Positions 14,815 to 64,000 of a stretch of DNA of 64,000 nucleotides are shown here, one piece after another. The stretch lies in the NCBI GenBank assembly GCA_030062745.1, contig CP099841.1, positions 11,536,970 through 11,600,969 on the forward strand, read 5' to 3'. The DNA is from Capitulum mitella. Its lineage: Eukaryota > Arthropoda > Thecostraca > Pollicipedomorpha > Pollicipedidae. Made by a program: the position numbers and the translations under genes. The notes beneath the pieces are model-generated. The model did no database searches and was not told the DNA's origin. It saw only the letters and a program-made list of their open reading frames with translations. The first letter of the stretch is position 1. The number at the start of each line of letters is the position of its first letter.

Positions 14815-17800
14815 ATGGCAGAGCTCAACCCCCTTAGCATAATTCTCGTGGAAAATGGCAGCAAAGGAGATCGACTTCTGTTTCGTTATCCATATGCGGA
14901 TGAACCTGCTACGTACATTACCAAGAGTAAGTGGTATTTGCATAATATTGATACTCTTTCATGTCATTTATTTCCGTTTTGTTGGTTCTGAATCCATGCT
15001 ATTCAGGAAAACTGTAGTTTATTTTTCCTCATCATGTCTTAAAGCATTTTAGGCATAAAGCATGTTTCATTATTCATAGGAGCAGAAGTTTTCATTATTT
15101 TTGCAGTTTCTGGTAAAATTATAGTGTCCTTAGCATGAAAACTCATATTTTTGGAACTTGCAGCTCAAAAATGCACATGCATTTAATATATTGGAATCAT
15201 TTGTGTTCTTCACATTCCTTGCTAGAATCTAAAAGCATTAATGAGACTATATTCTAACCCAGTTTTCATGCAGCTTGTTCATGCCCCTTTCCTTCATAGG
15301 TTTTCTTTGGCTGGATTGAAACTTTTTGCTACCATGCCAAAATTTAGTACCTTCTCTGGGATATTCATTTTAAATCATATGTAACATCCCAATTTTCATG
15401 TGTTCTTTGGGTTAAAAACTGTTTCTGGGAGGCTGGATCTGGCTATTTTGCAGTTGTCTCTAGACTTGTTGTTCCTGTTTGGATATCATTACTGTAGGTC
15501 CACTTTAACATTACTGTGATTTCAATATGTGAAGTTTGCTGAGGATCAAATGTAGAATCAGATGGAGAAACATGTGGAGCTGAGACTGAACCATGTATAT
15601 TGATGGCATACATCATTGATTTTAACTCAGTTTGTAAACAACTAAGTTTGTAAATAACTGCCACCAATGTGTTGGAGCTTGAATCTGCCACTACTTCAAA
15701 AATTGCTTCCAAACATGCCTTTAGGCTAAATTAAGACTAAATGTACATTAGAGTTCATGTATTTAAGCACTTGGAGCAATGTATGCCAGAAAAAAATAAA
15801 CCATTTACCTCACTTTTTGATCTTCTGAATGCACCACTGATGCCCTTTGATACTTTTGGAAACATGGGATGCCAGGTAAAATCACACACATTCATTGAAA
15901 CCCTCTTTTGTCATAATACACTGAGAAGACAGGCAGATATTGGCAAGGGAAGGAGGATGGAGACAGAATCGAACCCCATATGGATTTAAAGTGAAATCAA
16001 CTGCATGACAATAGAATTGGCATGATATGACTTATCCAGTTTTACATGACATGCCTTTCATTTCTGTTTATGTTTCTGTGTTTCAGGCTTCCGGACCAAC
16101 CCATATGCACTTGATGTGACCGAAGATTTATTCGCAACTCGGACTCGACATTCATCCAACATCAGTAAACACAGGCTGGTCGGCTTCACAGATAAGGTTA
16201 AAATGACTTTTAGTATCACCTAAAATTATCCCAGTTTCCAGATGTCTTTTTCCTCGTGCTCCCGTCCTAGAAGGACCCATGGATGTTCGCATTTTTGTAC
16301 ATGGGTGTGGTTTTCGGGAAATGATTGTGAGAGCCCAAAACACATATGGCGACATCCAGACGTTGCGTATCGGAGGGGAAGGGGTCTTGACAGGCGTTTA
16401 TGCCTAAAGTTCATAGAAATGAGTTTAAAAAAGTATTACGGGAGGTAAATTACGGACGGATGACTTCCGTAAATCGTGGATGGCTTTATGGCGGCTGCAT
16501 CCTTGAAAAGGAATATATCTGGTTTTTCCAGTGTCCCAAATCCGGGGAATTTTTAACAGTAGTGATGGGTTATTATGTAAATCAAAAGTGCTTTTTGGTC
16601 ATCGTAGACCAATATTCATGCGTTTTAGTTATTGTACTTGTGATATGTGATATCGGTAGGCAACTTATGACATACTTGTGACAGTGATATCGGTAGGCAA
16701 AATACAATACACAATACTAGCGGAAGGAGCTAATCGGCGAGCGGAAAATACGTAGGTAAAACTTGGACGTACCCGATACTTACCCAACACTGTGCCTTGC
16801 TGTACCAGATGCAGTTACAAAGGGCAACAACGATTGTTTTGACAAACAACACTAACGTATTTCGACCTATTCACGTAATACATACCTCCGAGGGAGATTC
16901 GGGGAACTGCAGGGATACTTGCCTGAATCCATGATGGCCGCTTTCATAATTTTAGTGGTCGTCAACTGCTGTAAGCTTCGACATCGACTTCGACTTCGAC
17001 ATCGCTGATGCTAACGATAGGCTGACACAATTCATTGGCGATTTTAACGTTGAAAAGAGAACGGGGTAAATAGATGAAACTTGGGATAGCAGCCAGCGTA
17101 CTCACCTACCTCAGTAAAACATGAGCCAACGAGAGCGAGTTGGCAAGAATGAATGGTATCTACGCATTGACTCATAAAAATGTCCTCCTCATTCTTACGT
17201 ACACAGGAAAAAAATCACGATGTGAGCAGATACACTCCCTTTCATGGAGGACCTTTCTGCAGGACCTGGTGATAATCCGGACAACTGGTGGATGACAGTG
17301 GAGTAAATGAGTTCCGGTTACAAGGTTATGAGTAAATGAGTTCCGGTTATTACATTTGTAACGTCGTAGGACTGAGAGTATAACTATATTTCAGTATTTA
17401 AACATTTTTGTCAGTTGTGGGTGCCCAAGTCGTATTATGGATGCCCATTTCCACTTTGTGGGTGCCAGGGCACCAACAAAGAGATAGGAAACCACACTTC
17501 TCTTTTAATGTCCAATACTGTCCGAATTTCTCATTTCTTTGTTGTAGGTGGATCTGGTTTCCATATTTTTGAGTAGCTACTCTAAGAATTACTCCTAGTG
17601 TCATTGTCTGGAAAACTGGCAGGCGTTCCATGGCTTTATTGGTGAGCGGTACTCACAACTACAGTTGTCCACGTTGTGGTCAGTGCTGCTGCTAACCCAG
17701 CGTCTATTTTGACCAGGTGCTGTCGAATCTCTGTGCCGTTCAGTCGCGCCTGGTCGGTCAGAAGTTTGAGGTCAAGGTCAACGATGTTCGCTTTGTGGGA

Positions 17801-20527
17801 CACCCCATTTCGATCCAGGCCGACCACCGCCGCACGTCCAACGAGGAGAACAAGTCCACCATTCATCTGTTCCACATTGTGTTCGCCCTTTGGGTTAGTA
17901 TCGTAGGTCCATGCGATCCCGCTAACGGTGGCTTTACATTACTGTGATTTCTACTGTTATCGGTGCTATTGCCTACTAGTATACCCAGTTCAAGCTCATT
18001 GTTCCATCAGTGAACTTCATGAGTTGATTGTGATATGGCATCCTGTTTTTTCTTTGGATCTTGAAACCTTGTGGTTTTTCCGTGTAAGTCCAGAGCAGTG
18101 GTCCGAGTGTTGTGTAGTCGATTCTGAGCATGCTTATGTAGGAAAAATACGTTTTCCAAACGTAAAGACAGCGTTACAGGGGAGATGTTCAGCCGCGTGA
18201 AGCAGAAGACTGCAACACTATAGTGCTTCAAAATTTCGACCTTATGCACTGGTGGATCCTTACCATGTACTGGTGGGGGGAGGGCAAGTCACCATCATTT
18301 GTGGCATCTGCCTCAGATGTTAATTTGTCCTCTGATTTTCATTCGACGTTTCTGAAAATTGGCGTCTGTAGCAGCATATTTGTTTCAAAAATGAAGTAGG
18401 CAACATTCGTCTGGAAAGGAGCTCAGAACACAAATTGGCCTGGGTTTGCCAAGTAAAGGCGGTCTCTGCCCTGATGAGCTCTCCCTGGATCCACCAGTGA
18501 TGTTATAATGAGTTGCATTAGCATTACTGACCGACTCTGCATCCCGCTGGGTACAGGCCAAGGCCAACCACTCGGTGGTAAACTGCTACCACGACCTGAG
18601 CCGCCGTGTTGGCATCGCGGTCTACCATGAAGAGAAACGATGCCGCTACATCACCAAGCAGGCCAAGATCATGCTGGGTCAGTGACGGCAAAGAATAGGG
18701 ATGACCTGGTCCACTCCAGTGCTCCTGTAGGATTGGTTCAGTTAATTGAAATGCCGTTAATTGCATCGAGATTGCTTCATCGGCGTGTTTATTTTTCTTA
18801 TGTTTGTTATTTGCATTGGAAAGGCTGTGGCTAGTTGTTGATGTATCAGATATCACGAATGTGTGCAAAATATTTCAATATGTGTAAAATTTATGCAATT
18901 TTATGTCATGACGTCTGTCGTCGCCAGTAATCACACGGTTTTTCATCGAAATTAAGCACTGCTATTCCCATATGTAATATGTTTCCTTGTGCTGCGGCCC
19001 AGATATATAGGCCCCTTCCCAGTAATTCATTTAGAGCATTTTCGCATTTCATTGGTTCCCTGGCAGGGCTAGTGCCGAACCCACTCGCGCTAGTCGTTCT
19101 CCCCACCACCCACGCTCCACGTTTCAGATTGGTTCAATCTGAAGGAAACTATCTGGGTTCTGTCATTACCACTCGTCGATCTCATGCTTCCCGTGCAGCC
19201 TCTCGCCCTCGCCCCACCTCCTGTCGGCTGCAGCACATCAGTATGACGTCTGCCTCTGGCACGGCGCCATCTCCTGGATAACGTCACCGCATGTTGTCCA
19301 TGTGACGTCACTGCTTGACTCCCTTGTAACATCACGTGCCGGCGGTGTGACGTTACTGCGTGCTCCCATGAAGCATCACCACGTACCACCCATGTGACGT
19401 CACTGCATGTTCCCCATGTGGCGTCACCAAGTGTTGCCCATGTGACGTCACTGCATGTTTCCCGTGCGTCGTCGTCACGCGTCGGCCACGTGACGTCACT
19501 GCATCTCTCCCTTGTGATGTCACCACGTGTTACCCGTGCGACTGCGGCGTATGTCGTGCGACGCATCATGCTTCTGGCGTGACATCACCACGTGTCTCAT
19601 GTGACATACTGCATACATCCCGCAGCATCTGCACATGTCTCCCATATGACGTCACCGCGCATGTAATATTACGTTGTCCGTATGTGCGTCCCCCATGTGG
19701 CTTCACCGCTTGACCTATGCGACGTGACTCGGTGCCTCCGCGTAACGTCACCGTATGTCATGTCGCCACGTGTCTCTTATGTGACGTCACGTGCCTCCCA
19801 TATGACGCCGCTTGTCTCCTATGTGATATCGCCGTTCTCCCGTATGACGTCACGGCGTCCGGTGCCGTCCGCAGCCGTGCACGACGACTACGCCTCCCAG
19901 CCGGAGGCCAACCGACTGGAGTCTCCCTTCAGTCTGGTGCTGTCTGCCAGTCAGCTGGCCAGGGAGCTGAAGGCTGTCTATGACGGGTGAGGGTCTCGTA
20001 GGGGGGTTGGAAGGTCGTGTTGACGTCTGTGAGCTGGGTTTCTGACTGCGGTTGGTGGAGTTCGTCGGGGATCGATGCCTGTTGCTGGGGTGTCTCAGTC
20101 ATCCCAACAGTGGTTAGTGGTAGCGTCATTACGTACAGCTCATATCCGATTTATGAGGGTATTGCAGCAAACCTTCGTTTTATATGACATCAGGAACGTG
20201 GAATGGGATAGGTTTTGATATCAAGCGTGTTTTTTGTGTGTGTTTGGTGGCAACTATTTTTCCATTGAAGGCACATACATGGCTTTCAGTCGTATATGAT
20301 CACGTTTTTCCCATGGACACTCATTTAGGCCGAATATTACCTGTGGCACTGCAACTTTGACTCATGCCTTTTTTTGTAATACGACTTCCTGCACGATCAT
20401 GGCTGGAGATTTCCAAGAATGATGGGGGGCACATAGGATTTCAGACTGTTTCCTCCGCGTCATTGTCTTAGAAATTCCTGTCCCTGAATCCCTGAAACCC
20501 CTGACCATTGGGGGTTCCGTACCCCCC

Positions 20528-20603
<76 letters not shown>

Positions 20604-20650
20604 TCTTCTCTCTTGTCTTCTTCTGTCTTTTCTGTCTGTCTGTCTTTCTG

Positions 20651-20748
<98 letters not shown>

Positions 20749-20777
20749 TCTTCTGTCTTCTTCTGTCTTCTTCTTCT

Positions 20778-20843
<66 letters not shown>

Positions 20844-23800
20844 AGTTCAGACATGTCAGGCGGGTATCTCTCTCGCCGCTCCCTTAGGCTGGTGCAGACG
20901 GGCACCGTGCAGCTCAGCATCGGCGTCTCTCTCTTTGCTGATACACGTCAGGCGCGATTGTGACCGCTCCCTCAGGCTGGTGCAGACTGGTACCGTGCAC
21001 CTGAGCATCGGGGGCTGGATCGACGTCAGCTTCTGCCTCCCGCAGAAGATCCACAAACTCCACCTGGAGGAGTGCACGGTGGAGGTAGGGGACGCGACGC
21101 CTGAGGCGTCCTGGGTCTCATCATCGCCGCTCCGGTATTCGCGCGGATGACTCGTCTCCGGGGATGCCGCTTGTCTAGTGTAAACTTGCCGTCGAACGCT
21201 GTTGAATCGTTGACGCCCACTGGTCGTCGTCTGACATTGGTTTTAGCTGACTGCTTTGAAGCGTAGATTGATGATAAAATAAGGAGATGGATTTTCACTT
21301 TGACCAGGACAGTTTCCCACATATTTTGGTTATTGATGTTGCCGCAGACTGGCATGTGGCCGATTGCCAACGCCGAGTAGGAAATTGTGTGGCCATGACT
21401 GGCATTCCATGTCGAGGTGGCTAGTTGGTAACGTCAAGGTAACGTCAGCCCCCCTGCCTCCCTCCCACCGCCATCTCGACAGCGTCATCTCGAGTACCTT
21501 CCCGGAGACCTCTCATCCGCCGTGTTCCGATCGCGTGCGCTGTACTCTGGCCGTGTCCCCCCGGCAGCCTGAGGCCATCTACCGGTGCCTGAGCCTGCTG
21601 AAGCCGTACCACACGCTGCTGCTGCTGGAGGACGAGCGCCAGCTGCTGCGCTCGCTCAGCCCGGACTCGTCGCCGACGCTGCGCCGCCTCGTGCGCGTGG
21701 CCAACCCGGTGCGCAACCTGCAGAACCTGGCCGCAGACGCCGATCTCACGCTGCGACACGTGTTTGAGGTCAGTCGGCCGCGGGAGGGTGCGGCTCGTGC
21801 TGGAGGGTACGTGGGTTCGGCCGTGTACCGGCCGCTGTGGCACACCAGCCGCGTCGTGGAGACCCTTATATTATATATATTAAGCGGCACTGTGCACCAG
21901 TAAGTTGAACTCTGCACGTGATGTCGTCATTTGTGTTGCAGGTATTCTAGCGAATGCTTTTAAGGGTTGCGATCATACGATTTCCGGCGACCTTTATAGC
22001 GGCTTCAGCTGATGAAAATGGCAATGTAGTTTCGTGAAGGTCAGTGTGCAGGCTGACGTAGGTTGGGAAGTATTCGGCTTTGATCGCGTTTTGAAGTTTT
22101 GCCTTTTCCGGGCAAGTTTCAAGTCCAAACTTCCCGTCGTTTCATAAGTTTAGTTAGTCGTTACCAGTGTGCAGCCGTTTTATCGAGTTTGTCGGTCGGT
22201 ATCACGGATCCCGTTCGTTTCAGCTGATCAGCCAGCTGGTGTACTGGGCCAAGGCCACCATCATCTTTCCGCTGTGCGAGAAGAACGTGTACGTCATCTC
22301 GCCGTATGCGCCCACGAAGCTGTGAGTTCTGTGGCCGAGTTATTGTTCTGCTGCAACTCACGGACAAGGGCATGTTCTCGGTAGAGGATTCTTGTCCGTC
22401 TGCTTTGCGTTTCTACCACTTTGTGAGCAACGTCTTTCCGTCTGCACGTCTTTTCCCTTAAGCGTAATTATTCACACGTACTTCAGCCATCAATTTTATC
22501 TCTTATCTGTTCGTACGGTTAAACATAAGCGTCATCTAACAACAGCTTGCTCTTGTCTTTGTGTTCTTGTAGATGTTATCGACTACCGTACATGCGTTTG
22601 GAAATACCGGAGTTCAGCCAGCAAGCTTATTTCGGACATGGGATCATGCTTTTTTTTCCTTAAGAAAGTTTTGCTTTTTAGAAACTCCAAGCTGGCTAGT
22701 GACTTCGCAGAGGAGTTTCCAGGCCAGAACCTGCATCAGGTGCTGTCCGAATACTCACTGCCATCAACTCTGAGCCAAAAGGTCACACCAGTCACTGCTC
22801 ACCAGCAGCAGGTCAGTGCCGGGATCAGCTAACTGGAGTTCGTAGTAAGGGCTGGGTCAGGTTCAGGATGAATGATTGGAACGTTCCAAATACTCAACGC
22901 TAATGTGCTAATGATAATATATGGCGCTGGACGTGAAGTATTGATTAACGAAATGCTTGTAGCCTGACATCGGTGTTTGTGTTTTTGGGAGTGTCGCTTT
23001 ATGTCTCCTCTCTCCAGTCTCCTCTCTCAGCTGTCCTCCACAATACCCCCTGAGGAGCGGGAACGCTTTACTTTGTTTCGTTTTTTCCAACGCCGTCGAC
23101 GGTGGAACGTTGACGGTGCCGGTGACGCCGTTGGCCCGTCGACGTGGCGCCTAGGTGTTTATTCGTACGCAGCGCCTCTACTCTGTCTCATGTCATCCCG
23201 TCTGTCCACTGCCCGTGGTAAGCCCCGGCTGCCGCCCGCCCCTGACCCGGCATCACGCTCCCGCCGCAGCCGGCCAAGGTGCAGGTGCTGGTGTGGCTGC
23301 TGCAGCGGCGGCTGCTCATGCAGTTGCATGTCTACATCTTCTTTACGCCGGTCACCAAGCTGCCCGGCACAGGTGCGTACTGCGCCGAGTCGGACGTGAA
23401 AGACTGCGCTTGGCCGATTTTCAACTGCGAGCTAGTCAGCTGTCGGTGTCAGCGCGTGCGTTCTTGAATTGCCGAGGATAATTTTCACAATTGCGGGTTG
23501 AGGTGGATAACGCTTCGCAGATGTCCGCTTCAGCTTTAGCCAAAACACTTGTATAAAAGGAAACGTTCCGTTGAAATCGGGAGAAAAATTCAAGTTACCT
23601 CCTTCAGGTTACTTAAAGCTTACTTCAGTGAAGAGAAATTCTCGTGCGTACTTGACCCCGATAGGCAATAAGGAGGCATATCAACCAGGTTTGACAATTT
23701 TTGTCAGCAAACGGTTTTTGCTTGTAAAAACTATGGGTGTTAACCTCACTGGCGAAAGCAATTTTCGTTTTGTTTTTGCCATCATGTTACAAGAACTCAT

Positions 23801-26336
23801 GTTTGTGAATTCTGTTTGTGTTAATACTTAGGAGATTGATGAGGTATACAGGTGGTACTGCCAGTAGTTTGGTCCTAAGCCCAGAGGTATTGTGAGTTCA
23901 TGGGGTGAACAAAGTTGTGTGATTCCATTTTGTTGTGTAATAACCAGGACGGTAACTTTAATGCTCTATGTGCTCTGACAAGCGCCGTTGTACTGTTAAC
24001 TTGGACAAACACCGGGATGAATAGTGATTGTGCCTGAGGAACAACGATGTGTTGTGATGCGTTTTTGTACCGTGTTTTCAGCCCAGATGTACACTCATTG
24101 CGTTAGGGTGCGTGCGATCACAATGACATGGTTGTACTGATGAATGTTATAGCTCTTTGATCAACAAAGGACTTAGGGGTCATGGGACGTATGTTGCAGA
24201 TCGGCTAAGGAGCACAATGCATTAACCATGGCGATACTGCAGTAACTGTACGCGAATGGGAAGATGTTAACATGAAATCAACCACCAGGATTTAAATCCA
24301 TATTTACCAATTGCCAGTTAGCTATCTCCAGTAGTAGGAGTCAAATACTCTCTTGCAGTTTGCCCTTGGAGAGGAATTCCGTTTGTAGATCATATAATTT
24401 TTTCACTACATCTGACAAGAGCAGAAGCAAAAATTTATTTCCCACCATAAATAACATGCATAGGCGTCATAGCAGCCATAGCTGGATTTCAAGCACCACA
24501 GACAGGCTGCGTATGCCATTATGAACAGAAAACACCGAATATGTGCAATTAAAAACAATCAGCTGACTACCGATAACTTGTGACATCATCCATACAGGTG
24601 TAACAGTGAAATAGGGTCTACATTGGCTTGTAATACCGTGACATTTATCCCCAGGAGCTTTTTGTCTGGCATTGAATTTTTCCAGTAAGCACTGGTTTGT
24701 TACCGTAAGAAATGGATTGATAACACCAACTTAGCAAAAGCTGTTTTTTTGCTGGCATTTTGCCAACCCTGATGTTACCCAGCCTGCAGTAGGCTTCGCT
24801 CACTGTTGCGGATGGCCTGATCGTGCATTAATCATTCATTCTTTCATTGTCGTCATTCTTGTTGGCGTTGCGGGTTGCGGATGGCTGGTACGTGTAACTT
24901 TCCCGCGTAATTTCCATTGCAACAGTTTTTTAGCAAACATTCATCAGATGCTGATTTCCAGTGACGGCACGTCGTATATTATCTCAGTATCAAATATGAC
25001 GCATCTGCTTTACTAAATGTTGTTTCCAGCGCCGACCAGCCGCCAGTCCACGCCGGACAGCATGGCAACCACGCTCAACACGGCCTCCGACACCAGCTCA
25101 GGTCAGCTGGCGCGTGTGGCGGGCTGGGCGGCGTCCCTACGGTCACGTTTGGTATCATCACATGGCCGCCGGTGGTGGACCTCTGATGGCCTGAGTCTGG
25201 TCGCCAGCGGTGGACGGACGGCGACTTGTGTCCGGTGCCCAGAAATGGACTGCTGGCCATAGTGCGGTCCCCAGTGGCTGGTGTCGGATGAGGTGTGTCC
25301 GGTCTCCATTGATGCACATCAGATGACCTGTCTATGGTCCCCCAGTTGTGGACGTCTGACGGCTTGTGTGTGATCTCGTGTTGTGGGCGTTTGATGACCT
25401 GTGTCAGATCCCTGCAGTGGACGTTCGGTGATCTGTGTCCGGACCCCCAGTGGTGGATGGTGGGGCGCCGATGAGTCCTGTGCCGCACGAGCATCGGGCC
25501 GAGCTGTTGCTGAGCTCGCTGACGGAAGCAGAGCGGGAGGCTGTGCTCAAGGTGCCTGCCACCAAGGATGTCGAAAAGCTGCGGTTGTTCTCCAGGTGAC
25601 GGCTGCTGAATAACCATTATGACTATCAATGTCGATAAAGGCGATGACTTGATTGCATTTCTGGCTGAACACTTTCGGGTACCACTCCTTGAAGAACGCA
25701 GAAAGAGTGAAGTGTAGAAACCTTGCTCTCTTGGGGTGAGCTTTTGTTTCAGTACGGGCTGTTACGAGATATTTTGACCTTTGTCATTTGCTTCGTCTGC
25801 AAAATTGGTAATCCTATTACGAGCACATTTGCGGTGGAGACTGCTGACATTGATGGGTGGTACGTATCACGCCTTCCATAAGCGGTGTCTGTTAAAGACG
25901 ATGTGTTACGAGAATACTTAATTACATGAAATACAACATAACTTTGTCGACATGAATCGCGCAAAACCGCAAACGTCATCTGGTCCTGCTATTGTCTGGT
26001 GGTAGCAAGAAAGTCACGTTTGCCATACCCTGGGTCCGGCACAGGCTCCTTCGCTACTTCAACGGGAGGTACCATCTGGAGGAGATCATGTACCGGGAGA
26101 ACCTGCGACGGTCGCAGCTCCATCAGCTGCTGGAGGAGTTCCGGGACGTGCTGAGCACCTGCCAGCGAGACGACGAGATGTCCTTCCACCACGGCCCCTC
26201 CACCACGGCGGATGGCGTCCCGCCGTCCTCTCCATCACGGCTGATGGCGTCCTACCGTCCCTCAGTCACGGCTGATGTCGTCCTGTCGTCCCTCGCCACG
26301 GCTGATGGCGTCCCGCTGTCCCTTCATCACGGCTGA
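14815..26336 (+). CDS. NPRL3: GATOR1 complex subunit NPRL3, 13 coding exons
   Basis: NPRL3 with NPRL2 and DEPDC5 forms GATOR1, the GTPase activator of RagA/B that turns off TORC1 at the lysosome when amino acids are low. Exons: 14815-14926, 16087-16196, 17717-17893, 18557-18677, 19875-19986, 20976-21084, 21568-21768, 22224-22321, 22682-22811, 23270-23372, 25030-25101, 25451-25595, 26045-26336. All junctions have GT/AG ends and phases agree, giving 593 residues against 569 in human. Family landmarks in order: [113 protein letters not shown], then the C-terminal winged-helix segment [17 protein letters not shown]. After DDE at about 26178 the usual short tail is replaced by about 50 residues, mostly minisatellite-encoded. 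Confidence 0.94.
19275..19862. repeat. NPRL3: 24-bp minisatellite with TGACGTCA cores, NPRL3 intron 4
   Basis: Units of the form TGACGTCACTGCATGTTCCC plus CATG repeat every 24 bp (for example 19395 and 19419), degrading toward the right. I count seven perfect TGACGTCA palindromes among roughly twenty units. Because 24 is a multiple of three, both strands show open frames with an eight-residue period; these are not genes. The array runs to within about 15 bp of the exon-5 acceptor. Confidence 0.85.
20529..20843. repeat. NPRL3: (CT)n followed by (CTGT)n, NPRL3 intron 5
   Basis: A pure CT run at about 20529-20600 is followed by interrupted TCTTC/TTCTG and long CTGT runs to 20843. The open frames here (Ser/Leu and Cys/Leu/Ser/Val repeats; Asp/Arg/Gln/Thr on the other strand) are low-complexity artefacts. 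The polypyrimidine tract lies just before the exon-6 acceptors. Confidence 0.95.
20855..20975 (+). repeat. NPRL3: Partial duplicate of NPRL3 exon 6 with own acceptor
   Basis: The sequence from gtcaggcg through the acceptor and the start of exon 6 occurs twice, 88 bp apart. The first copy has acceptor CCCTTAG and then GCTGGTGCAGACGGGCACCG from 20888; the second, complete one has CCCTCAG with the exon from 20976. The first copy stops resembling the exon after about 36 bases and has no clear donor, so it is a decoy rather than an alternative exon. Confidence 0.8.
25170..25450. repeat. NPRL3: 33-37-bp minisatellite ending at exon-12 acceptor
   Basis: Units resemble CCCCCAGTGGTGGACGTCTG followed by atgacctgtgtccggt. 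Acceptor-like AG positions fall at 25207, 25242, 25274, 25345, 25417 and the true site 25450. The first coding bases of exon 12 (tggtggatggtg) match the unit, so the real 3' splice site is the last unit of the array. Confidence 0.75.
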
Positions 26337-26510
26337 TGGCGTCCTGCCGTCCCTCACCACGGCTGATGGCGTCCTGTAGTCCCTCCATCATGGTTGATGG
26401 CGTCCTGCCGTCCCTCAGTCACGGCTGATGGCGTCCTGCCGTCCTCCCACCACGGCTGATGGCCTCCTGCCGTCCCCCACCACGGCTGATGGCGTCCTGC
26501 CGATCCTTCG
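26204..26510. repeat. NPRL3: 30-31-bp minisatellite overlapping NPRL3 C-terminus
   Basis: The motif cacggctgatggcgtcctgc recurs at 26204, 26236, 26267, 26297, 26328, 26358, 26389 (as catgg), 26420, 26451 and 26481. The first four or five units are read as NPRL3 codons until TGA at 26334-26336, inside the motif gctgatg. The unit length is not a multiple of three, so successive units are read in different frames. Confidence 0.9.
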
Positions 26511-27055
26511 TGCCATCACTTTCTACTTCCGTAGGTATCTTTCGAATTCAGCCGAGCGTTTCCCTCCATCGTGGCTGGCGAGTTTTTCTGCGGGTCGCAC
26601 GCGAGGGCTCGGCATAGGAGCTGGTCTGGTCTAGATATCCGTCATCAGGTTCTTCAGACGGGGCTGGTCCGGTCTACGTCTCAGGGGTCGCGAGAGACTT
26701 AGACGTCGGCTGATGGGGAGTCGTCGGCGATTCAGCCGTAACACTGAATGGAGGGACGGCTGGGCGACTGGCCGACCAGGGCTTTACCCGACGCGCCCGA
26801 CCGATGGCGTCAGCGGGTTGAGGACTCGGTCCAAGGCATCGGGACAAGTAGGGACGAATATTGTGATTTGTGATGTGTTTTATAGCTACATGTGCGCTTT
26901 TTCTGCGTCCGTTTGTGTATTGGGAACTTTGCTGTGGCTTTTGATGACGCGAGGGTGACATTATTCAAGAAGCAGGGCATGATTTGTACTGATTTTCTGT
27001 CCAGACTCATTGTATGGACGTTGAACGCAGTGCAATAAACCTATGTAACGCGAAG
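26337..27055 (+). other. NPRL3: NPRL3 3' untranslated region with poly(A) signal
   Basis: The rest of the minisatellite is followed by about 500 bp without a gene. AATAAA at 27034-27039, with a TGTG/GTAACG stretch after it, is the best poly(A) signal for NPRL3. Confidence 0.6.
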
Positions 27056-28105
27056 AAGTACGCCATGGCGTTTTACTTCACTGCTTTTCCGTAATTTTTT
27101 TTTGTGCTGTTCCCAGTTGGACAGCCGGTCTTGAATGCGAAAAGGGGTGAATTCAAGAAATGAAGGGGTTATTCTGAATTCACACCACGGACTGTTCCAT
27201 GATCATCTGGCCGGTGTATTGATCTTTGTTGGGCAATGTTCCCGTGGACGAGTTCATTCGCAGTCACCACATTTTTGACCATGATCTGGACGACATTGTT
27301 TCCTGGCGATTTGGAATGCACTAGGTGCGGAACTTGCTCCAGCAAGGGGGGAGGCACCGGCTATTTTTCGAGCGTTCCTTTCCTTGCAGCGTCGTAGGGT
27401 TAATGTTAAATTTCGCCCAGTTAACCCTATTCCCGGAGAGCTAGACGGTATGGCCGATTCCCGGCAGGTGGACGGATTCGCCCCCCCCCTGAGATCTCGA
27501 GAACTACACATCCGATTTTATCGCAACAAACGGCAATCGATTTACCATGATGTGAACTACATTTTTAAAAAGGAAACTCAAAATTTTGAAAGGAGGTGGA
27601 TACCGGGGGCCAAAAATATCGAAATGGGGAGTGCTTTTGGGCTTCGTATAACTCTGATTGTTTATGGACCGATTTCAACGAAATTAACATGAATCGAGAG
27701 ATTATGGATAAGACTTTTTCCATTGATACACACATTTCAAATTTTGAGAAAATTCATAGGCGTTCACAGGGTTTTAAAAATAGGAGGATTAGTCCTCCAA
27801 AAACTGAATGAAGAAAAAAGGTAGACACTTTTTTGGCTTCTGCTAGTCATATCATACTAAGCAAATACAAATCGTATTACAGTGTTTGCATAATGTCAGC
27901 ACAGGCAGTGCCAGGGATACAAAAAAAGGGGAACAGTCATGGTCATATGCTCTTCAGGTCAACTTGTGACCTGTGACCTTAAATGACCTTCAGTGACCTT
28001 GGACTTACTTGAAATGATTCGTGTGCATTAAATATTGTCTGTAAACGTTTTCAATCATTTGAATTCACTCTATTTCGAAAATTCCATTTTATGTTTATTG
28101 TGGTA

Positions 28106-29418
28106 GGGGAAGGTGGGGTAAGACGGCCCACTGGGGTAAGACGAACCACCAGCCTTCCCGGCTGAACCGCTGCTGCCATCTGCTACACTGTACACTAACT
28201 ACCTTTGTTTTCCTTCGCGCCAGTCGCCATCTTGGGCTAATGGTTCCAGGACGCACGGATATTGAGTTATTGAGTAAAATGGTCTTTTTCGTCGCGCTGA
28301 CCTAAGGTAAGAGGTCTAAGAATGATTAAATTTAGACGCGTTTTTTGCATCATTAATCTTTCTTTGTATTTTGCTGTGAAGAGCAATGATAGAAGCACAA
28401 GTTAGGGCAGGCAAGTTTTCGCAATGTTGGGCTATTTAGTATCTACGTCATGATGTTTCCAAAATTTAGGTTTGGGGTAAGACGGACCACTAGTCGTCCG
28501 TCTTACCCCGTGGTGGTCCATTTTACCCCACAGATACAAAACCTCGCTAAAACACTGTGACTTGTTTAAAGTACCTATGTATCTACAAATTTCAATAAGC
28601 TAATTTTTTAATATTTTTGCAGATGCCGCGCAAGTACGAGCGTAAAACCGATCGTGGAAGTTGGGACGAGGAGAAAATGGCGTTAGCCATTGAAGCTGTG
28701 AAATCAAAATCGATGGGTTTTTTGAAAGCTGCCAGAGCATTCAGCGTCCCCAAGACAACCCTGAAGGGAAGGGTGAAAAATCAAAACAAATGTGCCAAGG
28801 GGACTGATAAGCTGTTAGGCTCCAGGATGACTGTGTTTAGCCCAGCTCAGGAGAAGGAGCTGGTAAACCACATCCTTATGATGGAGAGCAAGTTTTTCGG
28901 ACTAACAACCAAAGACGTGCGATACCTGGCCTTTCATATGGCGGAAAAGAATAACATAACTCACAACTTCAACAAGGAGAGCGGTCTCGCCGGAAAAGAC
29001 TGGTTGGCCGGATTCCAGCGCAGGCATCCGGAGGTGGCGCTTCGTGTGCCATTATTATATTTATATTTATATACGTTATATATTTATATTTATATACGTT
29101 ATTTTATCGCTCTGTTTCCTTTGGTTTACAAGAGTATAGAAGTTATACAAACATAAATGGATAGCAGGCACTGCTGGGGTAAGACGGACCACTTATGGTC
29201 CATCTTACCCCGCGTTTTTTCTTGTCGCTGATTTTGACTCGTCCCCCTTTAAGAGCAAGCACCACCTAAATTTCTTGAATTTCAAATCCAGCGTCTGCAC
29301 GTATCAAAAGAGGGAAGAATCAACATTCAGAAGACTATGAACAATGTGAAGTTGGATAGCATGGTAGCGAGAAATGTGACTTCAAACCTTAGCTGGTCCG
29401 TCTTACCCCACCTTCCCC
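28106..29418 (+). mobile_element. pogo-like DNA transposon nested in copy A
   Basis: Terminal inverted repeats start GGGGAAGGTGGGGTAAGACG at both ends, and the target is TA (28104-28105 and 29419-29420). Related ggggtaagacggaccac blocks occur subterminally and internally (about 28473-28530 and 29173-29212). The empty site is visible in the sister element at about 40907 (ttgtggtatatggc), confirming the boundaries. The element is 1313 bp, too short for a full transposase, and contains one short reading frame. Confidence 0.88.
28623..29156 (+). pseudogene. Truncated pogo-like transposase (DNA-binding part only)
   Basis: The ATG at 28623 follows tttttgcag, so an upstream exon is possible. Residues about 10-50 (WDEEKMALAIEAVKSKSMGF and KAARAFSVPKTTLKGRV) form a psq-type helix-turn-helix. 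Residues about 65-140 (FSPAQEKELVNHILMMESKF, then GKDWLAGFQRRHP) match the CENP-B/Tc5 helix-turn-helix. After HPEVALRVP the frame runs into an AT-rich repeat (LYLYLYTLYIYIY) and stops, so the DDE catalytic domain expected next in pogo/Tigger transposases is missing. The product could bind the element's ends but could not cut. Confidence 0.8.
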
Positions 29419-61837: not shown

Positions 61838-63811
61838 CTAGGCGGGCGGCGGCGCCAGCTGGCGGCCGCCGTGCTGGGCGGCCGGCGGCGGCAGGCCGGC
61901 GAAGCGCGGCGGGCAGCGCTGCTGCGGCCAGCCGGCCGGCGCCGCCGGCGTTGGTCTCGGCTCCGGCTGCGGCACCTGGCCGCACGCCGTCGCCTTCCAG
62001 TGGCTGCGCAGGCCAGACGCGCTGATGTAGCGTTTGTGGCAGGATCCGCACGCGAACGGCCGCTCGTTGGTGTGCAGCCACCGGTGCAGCTTCAGGTGCA
62101 CGAACTGCGTGAAGCGCGACGGGCAGACCTCGCACGCGAACGGCTTGTGGCCCGAGTGCAGCCGCATGTGCGTCTTCAGGTTGGACGTGGAGCTGAAGCG
62201 TTTGCCGCACAGCTGGCACTCGTGAGGTCGCTCGCCTGCGGAAAAATCGCGGGCAGCGACCGGTCAGCCCACGTGTTATCGCACCGGGAACGGCGATTAT
62301 GATTGGAGCTCGCCAATCGCTAACGGTTCCCTGGGACTGATCTGACGTCACGAGCCCGTAAAGCTAAAGCAACTCTGGCACGCATCCGCCTGAGCAAATA
62401 GACGTAGACACTTTCTGGAGTGATGGTAATGAAGATGTTCTGTCAACCAAGATGCACGATTCCATGACACGACAAGCATTGCCATCCGCGGCTGCGCATT
62501 GTTGTTCTGGGCATCACTTCAGTTCAGATCACATACGGCAGCTGAAACTGAGCGTTGCCCGTTCCTCAGCGCGCCCTTAACTCACCCGTGTGGACCAGGT
62601 TGTGTTTCTGCAGGTGCGCCAGCTGGGTGAAGCTCTTGCCACACACGCCGCACTGGAAGGGCCGCTCGCCGCTGTGCGTGCGCAGGTGCACCTTGAGGTT
62701 GCTCAGCTGGCCGAACGTCTTGAGGCACTGGTTGCACTGGTAGTGCATCTTGCCGTCCTTCTTCTGCAGGGGGAATGGCAGCGAGCGGCAGCCGCGCGGT
62801 CGCGGCGCACCGGCACGGTCGCCGTGCCAGGGCGCCGGCGCGGCGCCGCCGGCCGCGCGGCGCGGCGCCGGCTCGGCGTACCGCGGCGCGCCGGCCGGCG
62901 CCGCGCGCACGTCGGCGCCGGCCTCGATCGAGTCGGCGCCGGGCCGGCGGCCGGCCGGCGCCGGCTGCAGCAGCCGCAGCTCGCCGCGGCGCCGCAGCAG
63001 GATGCTCTGCAGCAGGCTGCCGCCGGCCAGCGCCGCGTCCGGCTCCAGACCGTAGCGGCGCAGCTGGCTCCAGAGTTCGGCCGGCGCCTCGGGGTTCGGC
63101 GGCTCGGCGAGGAGCGGCGGCAGCGTCGGCGGCGCGGCCTCCGGCCAGCCGAGCTCGGCGGCCACCGCCGACCGCACGGCCGGCACGCGCAGCACGTGGA
63201 AGTCGGCCGGCGAGTCGGGCGAGGCGGACCGCGGCTCGGCGGCCGGTCGTGCGACCGCCTCCTCGGCTGCCTCGCCGGCAGACGCCGAGCTCTGGCGGCG
63301 CCGCTCCGCCGCGTTCTGCGACTTGATGTGGTACGCCTTGGACATCTTGATCTTGACCTTGCGGAACTCGTTGCGGCAGGCGTCGTCGGCGTGCCGTTTG
63401 CCGGGCCGGCTGAAGTCGAGCGCGCAGCCGCTGTCGGCGTCCTCATCGCTGCTGGGGCCCTGCGGCGGCAGGTCCGGCTGGCAGTCGTGGCTCTGGTAGC
63501 CCTCGTCGCTGCAGCCCGGCGAGGACATGGCCGACGACCGGCCCAGCGCCTGCGCCCGATTCGTCTCCCGCTCCCCGGCCTCCGATTCCGACTCCGATCT
63601 CCGCTCGGGTTTCGGCTCGCACTCCCGCCCCGGTTCCTGCCTCGGTTCTGGATCCAGCTCCGGTTCCGGTCGAGGCTGTGACTTGGGTTCCGGGATGCCA
63701 GCAGTCCTGGCCCAGTCCTCTGCCAAAGTCGGAAGCCACTGAGTGCCTGGGCGTTGGCCAGTTTCAACGGCCATTGCTAAAATGCCATGACCAGTGTACG
63801 TGTCTTCATCT
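61838..63811 (-). CDS. Blimp-1: Blimp-1/PRDM1 transcription factor, 3' exons
   Basis: Blimp-1 is a nuclear repressor; in insects it is ecdysone-induced and times developmental transitions. Exon 63811-62586 starts at a likely acceptor (GGTGCTTCAG; frame [16 protein letters not shown]). It encodes a Pro/Glu/Arg- and Ala-rich region with DEGYQSHD and [10 protein letters not shown], the latter loosely like a CtBP-binding motif. It then holds fingers 1 ([20 protein letters not shown]) and 2 ([20 protein letters not shown]). The donor at 62585 splits the HTGE linker. Exon 62235-61838 holds fingers 3 ([20 protein letters not shown]), 4 ([20 protein letters not shown]) and 5 ([21 protein letters not shown], a C2HC type), then an Ala/Pro tail to TAG. 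The fifth finger is the arthropod form. The PR/SET domain must be encoded further right, outside the window, so the gene is partial here. Confidence 0.92.
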
Positions 63812-64000
63812 CTGAAGCACCAAATGAGTGGTTTTGGAAAACAACAGCAAAAGGCTGAAGCACATCAGCGTGACTTCCATTACGTCCTCTCAAGTGTTTA
63901 ACCAAACATTAAATAGCTTCGACGATAAGGTGACCTTTATGATTCATAAGCTAGAAAAACGGTATGTTTGCAAACAGAGCACAATTCAGCGTCAGGTGTA

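Follow-up and report, generated by a model that had tools for sequence, protein, structure and literature searches.

The NPRL3 gene found in a 64,000-nucleotide stretch of Capitulum mitella DNA (the window) encodes the conserved protein up to the residues QRDDE (ending at 26177), after which the same frame runs into a minisatellite of 30-31-bp units. As had been claimed in a preliminary description of this DNA, which put the addition at about 50 residues ended by a stop from the repeat, 52 codons are read beyond that point and the stop is a TGA belonging to unit 5 of the array; the coordinates, the frame and the array itself were all confirmed. We consider it fairly probable, judging from the arrangement of the repeat units, that the minisatellite came to lie across the end of the coding sequence and the start of the 3′ UTR, that a stop codon in the first, incomplete unit (unit 0) was lost through an indel, and that the tail is consequently read as far as unit 5.

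Results

NPRL3 gene model and identity

NPRL3, known as Npr3 in yeast, is a subunit of GATOR1 and SEACIT. Splicing by hand at GT/AG sites recovered 12 exons of the gene in the window, on the forward strand from 16087 to 26336, which together form a single open frame of 555 residues. All 11 introns between these exons have GT/AG borders. The model begins at 16087, and the first exon or exons must lie upstream of this position. The features of the gene are as follows.

16087-16196, 17717-17893, 18557-18677, 19875-19986, 20976-21084 and 21568-21768, forward strand: exons before the last one, with GT/AG introns and an unbroken frame
22224-22321, 22682-22811, 23270-23372, 25030-25101 and 25451-25595, forward strand: exons before the last one, continued, with GT/AG introns and an unbroken frame
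26045-26177, forward strand: conserved part of the last exon, from the end of the C-terminal HTH to QRDDE (PF24064; PDB 6ces_M)
26178-26333, forward strand: array-read tail of 52 codons, MSFHHG...LHHG, from unit 0 to unit 5 (translation)
26334-26336, forward strand: TGA stop codon of the current frame, which is the TGA slot of unit 5 (translation, unit table)
27034-27039, forward strand: AATAAA, which probably serves the terminal exon as its poly(A) signal; no other AATAAA or ATTAAA occurs in 26337-28000

The spliced protein matched human NPRL3 (6ces_M) with an E-value of 1.5e-123, query residues 32-502 aligning with residues 63-558 of the 569 in the chain, and the second-ranked match was yeast Npr3 (8adl_U; E 1.7e-06). 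The last exon, which starts at 26045 behind an acceptor AG at 26043-26044, was recognised on its own by the Pfam profile PF24064 (HTH_NPRL3) with 57 bits (cut-off 27.2), over profile positions 24-61 of 62. For the peptide encoded jointly by the last two exons, no relatives turned up among the viral (14 pattern stretches) and prokaryotic (592) contigs that were searched. The gene looks intact as far as its last conserved domain reaches, and a pseudogene was ruled out, as neither the frame nor the splice sites are disrupted in the 12 exons.

The alignment with human NPRL3 stops 11 residues short of the human C-terminus (558 of 569), so that at most a short tail is missing from the protein studied here, and the match of HTH_NPRL3 up to position 61 of 62 confines the difference to the tail behind the domain. 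To say that the usual end of the protein had been replaced, as was first proposed, is therefore too strong, and what stands of that proposal is the possible absence of a short tail. Nothing on the last residues of NPRL3 was found in the available parts of PMC9646525 and PMC6292495. The array-read tail contains 10 Ser and 6 Pro in its 52 residues, and GC3 goes from 0.886 in the 44 codons before the junction to 0.769 in the 52 codons of the tail. It is probably a tolerated, Ser/Pro-rich and likely unstructured extension behind the HTH domain.

Structure of the minisatellite

The array and its irregular left end comprise three features.

26180-26195, forward strand: half-unit 0, GTCCTTCCACCACGGC, 15 of 16 bases identical to the unit consensus
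26194-26209, forward strand: repeated half-unit, offset by 14 bp from the first copy (repeat search, family D5)
26196-26502, forward strand: minisatellite of 10 units of 30-31 bp (TRF: period 31, 10 copies, score 402; unit table)

The units follow each other at start-to-start distances of 32, 31, 30, 31, 30, 31, 31, 31 and 30 bp, and the array spans 26179-26502 when half-unit 0 is included. The motif CGGCTGATGG is exact in 7 of the 10 full units. Mean pairwise identity, calculated over nine units, is 84.5%, a value like that of an old array, which suggests that this one is old and decayed.

Half-unit 0 is clearly better matched to the consensus than the rest of the exon before the array, where the best upstream place gives 9 matches, and 15 matches were not attained by any of 20000 mononucleotide shuffles of 26045-26195. 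In a window-wide nhmmer search with the unit HMM it scored weakly (26179-26195; 6.7 bits, E 0.72), and its weight thus rests on its adjoining the array. The left edge is sharp, as similarity to the left of half-unit 0 drops to 4-6 of 16 bases for nine of the ten units, the remaining unit (the first) having been left out because it was mis-anchored and gave 1 of 16. From the position of half-unit 0 it follows that homology to the array begins inside the reading frame, as previously described, at 26179-26180 and hence one or two bases after the start of 26178 given earlier. As a tandem array inside a predicted reading frame, it is a candidate coding VNTR.

Each unit has a slot for a stop codon, which holds TGA in 9 of the 10 units and GGA in unit 1. 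With the NPRL3 frame taken as frame 0, units 0 to 5 have their slots in frames 0, 2, 1, 2, 2 and 0. The slot of unit 0 (26196-26198) is therefore in the NPRL3 frame, and it currently reads CCC because another half-unit follows half-unit 0 after 14 bp. This second copy was probably left by a short insertion, or else by a deletion of approximately 17 bp.

Other arrays and features in the window

The intron before the penultimate exon contains a degenerate array with a unit of about 35 bp (25169-25457, or to 25460 as compared below), also not a multiple of three, whose last unit holds both the 3′ splice site of that exon (25450|25451) and its first codons (VVDG), while several other units carry acceptor-like CAG words. 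Regarding a common origin with the array in the last exon, local alignment of the two gave a score of 22, reached by 5 of 300 shuffles, and the HMM of the exon-array unit found no match in 25169-25460 at E-values up to 10. Further upstream, the exon at 19875 is closely preceded by degenerate arrays (19346-19826; 48/24 bp and 21 bp) in which words resembling TGACGTCA and CACGTG are numerous, so that several NPRL3 exons have arrays close by. The exon at 20976 has a second copy of its head, located 88 bp before it (20876-20928 and 20964-21016; 53 nt, 87% identity) and next to a (GTCT)n tract (20528-20843). In this extra copy an AG (TTAG) is retained before GCTGG, so that it could act as a decoy acceptor.

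Outside NPRL3, an ORF at 28599-29153 encodes Psq and Tc5 transposase DNA-binding domains and is presumably the remnant of a pogo-like transposon, and two minus-strand ORFs with C2H2 zinc fingers (61841-62263 and 62569-63864, together 61841-63864) may be PRDM1/Blimp-1-like. Scans of the window returned no Rfam families at gathering score and no tRNAs.

Discussion

Proposed displacement of a stop codon within the first units

The register of the array suggests an old stop in its first unit, which makes the event look like a stop loss into a repeat-bearing 3′ end. NPRL3 would then have ended in ...DDEMSFHHG*, and the region around this stop codon may be where the array originated. An indel in the first units or between them, either a small duplication or insertion of 14 bp or a deletion of about 17 bp, would have put the old stop out of frame. 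The ribosome would then continue for 46 more codons, reading the repeat out of register, and would end where the TGA of unit 5 is back in register (...LHHG*). The in-frame register of the unit 0 slot has a chance of one in three on its own, so the ancestral stop in unit 0 is a lead and not a proof. The version with a 14-bp duplication also requires that the TGA of unit 1 changed to GGA, and, with GGA now in that slot, the first change could have been a point mutation instead of an indel.

Reading into the array is bounded, owing to the presence of TGA in nearly every unit and to the rotation of frame by units of 31 bp. The array nevertheless halts reading no sooner than ordinary DNA of the window, as the median distance to the next stop was 18 codons (maximum 78) for starts in 26179-26449 versus 17 codons for 5000 random starts in 27100-60000.

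Splicing and sequence errors as alternatives

The array could be absent from the mature transcript if a non-consensus donor before or within it were joined to an unrecognised downstream last exon encoding the usual tail. To assess this we scored GT dinucleotides with a donor matrix built from approximate frequencies, a permissive scale given that 15.8% of the 3923 GTs in the window reach the score of the weakest native donor (-1.09). The 11 native NPRL3 donors range from -1.09 to 5.13 and three of them are weak (-1.09, -0.01 and 0.58), which speaks for this possibility in that weak donors are in use in the gene. Among the 17 GTs in 26046-26336 only one, at 26069 (-0.72), exceeds the weakest native donor; it could be used as far as its score goes, but it would cut the conserved HTH. 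All others score -2.9 or less, the next best being those at 26090 (-2.9) and 26148 (-4.98), while the top GT within the array has only -6.68. Every GT in 26090-26336 accordingly scores below the weakest native donor, and the earlier statement that no consensus donor precedes the array is supported. Moreover, a poly(A) signal lies downstream of the last exon, and this single AATAAA at 27034 fits a terminal exon of about 1 kb. We therefore regard removal of the array by splicing as unlikely. Six GTs past the stop do reach the score of the weakest native donor (26535, 26848, 26863, 26892, 26955 and 27012), making an intron in the 3′ UTR possible, and the protein would be unchanged by it.

Wrong bases or a wrong number of units could likewise have produced a run-on frame, in which case the gene would really end at or close to unit 0, or at some other place. 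Errors are common in repeats and C-runs, and a small indel in unit 0 or unit 1 would be enough to shift the stop; among the cases in the part of PMC4494051 available to us, one putative fusion turned out to be replicated assembly errors. Against this, collapse or mis-joining is unlikely in an array of no more than about 320 bp whose units have diverged to the mean identity given above, and the 14-bp irregularity exceeds a typical read error. An error of sequence or assembly thus seems to us an improbable source of the extended frame, and we retain the displacement of an ancestral stop as the preferred explanation.

Copy-number variation and the C-terminus

The preliminary description had also claimed that changes in copy number would alter the C-terminus. 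In a simulation by a script that deletes or duplicates runs of units, with borders set at CGGC anchors (other borders give other tails), the tail was altered by 46 of 66 deletions and 12 of 66 duplications of unit runs, and by 5 of 11 deletions and 4 of 11 duplications of single units, with tails of 6 to 100 residues. The claim is correct for changes upstream of the stop in use (9 of 22 single-unit changes) and overstated otherwise, as changes wholly downstream of unit 5 have no effect because the stop precedes them.

According to the part of PMC3899988 available to us, longer and purer repeats mutate more, the number of units is the most important factor, and frameshifts occur in only about 1% of human genes with repeat polymorphism. 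With units only 84.5% alike, frequent variation between individuals is not to be expected from the effect of purity, although the 10 units present count in the other direction, unit number being the main factor named there. On balance we expect little variation between individuals.

It is also conceivable that the minisatellite serves as a self-capping generator of alternative C-termini, with alleles that differ in the NPRL3 tail and a possible effect on TORC1. Most units can close one frame with HHG, SHG or RHG followed by a stop, and changes of copy number or indels upstream of the used stop would yield new but bounded tails of this GATOR1 subunit; we give this idea little credence. It is very improbable that the array has belonged to the NPRL3 tail of this lineage from the start and has a function there, being kept and perhaps varied by selection. 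The open frame and the intact look of the gene speak for it, but units 2-4 retain TGA in other frames, no repeat peptide is kept because the reading frame differs from one unit to the next, and openness is at chance level: when the array was shuffled by dinucleotides, 110 of 200 versions stayed open for at least 51 codons, which makes the 52-codon open run unremarkable and in no need of selection.

Comparison with known systems

If the loss of an ancestral stop is confirmed, NPRL3 would offer a clear example of a minisatellite that extends across a stop codon, in which a conserved protein gains a bounded tail when its stop is displaced, as the repeat carries spare stops in rotating frames. For annotators, it is a caution that protein tails in repeat-rich genomes may derive from arrays. 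What is known of GATOR1 is unchanged by the array-read tail. A literature search found no paper joining a minisatellite with a C-terminal extension past the stop codon into the UTR.

The protein resembles NPRL3/Npr3 elsewhere in being conserved to the end of the C-terminal HTH, and differs from human NPRL3, which has 11 residues past the aligned part, in that its last residues are encoded by an array. Extension of a coding frame into the former 3′ UTR by loss or displacement of the stop is what Andreatta et al. 2015 (PMC4494051) describe, with 54 cases in Saccharomyces and 28 in Drosophila of new C-termini arising by point mutation of the stop or by a frame-displacing indel, to go by the part of that study available to us. 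Unlike the cases in that part, the 3′ sequence of NPRL3 is a minisatellite in which most units bear a stop, and the words tandem, minisatellite and microsatellite are absent from the main text of PMC4494051. A tandem array in the last exon is shared with human CEL, for which the available part of PMC8692231 reports a last-exon VNTR in which indels and frameshifts, including single-base-deletion variants, give aberrant C-termini and new stop positions. The units of CEL are nearly identical, with 33 bp or 11 residues each and 3 to 23 copies (same part of PMC8692231), whereas those of NPRL3, known from one sequence, have 30-31 bp, are decayed and rotate the frame. The NPRL3 case would combine two documented phenomena, stop loss and a last-exon VNTR, and is a curiosity that involves no new mechanism.
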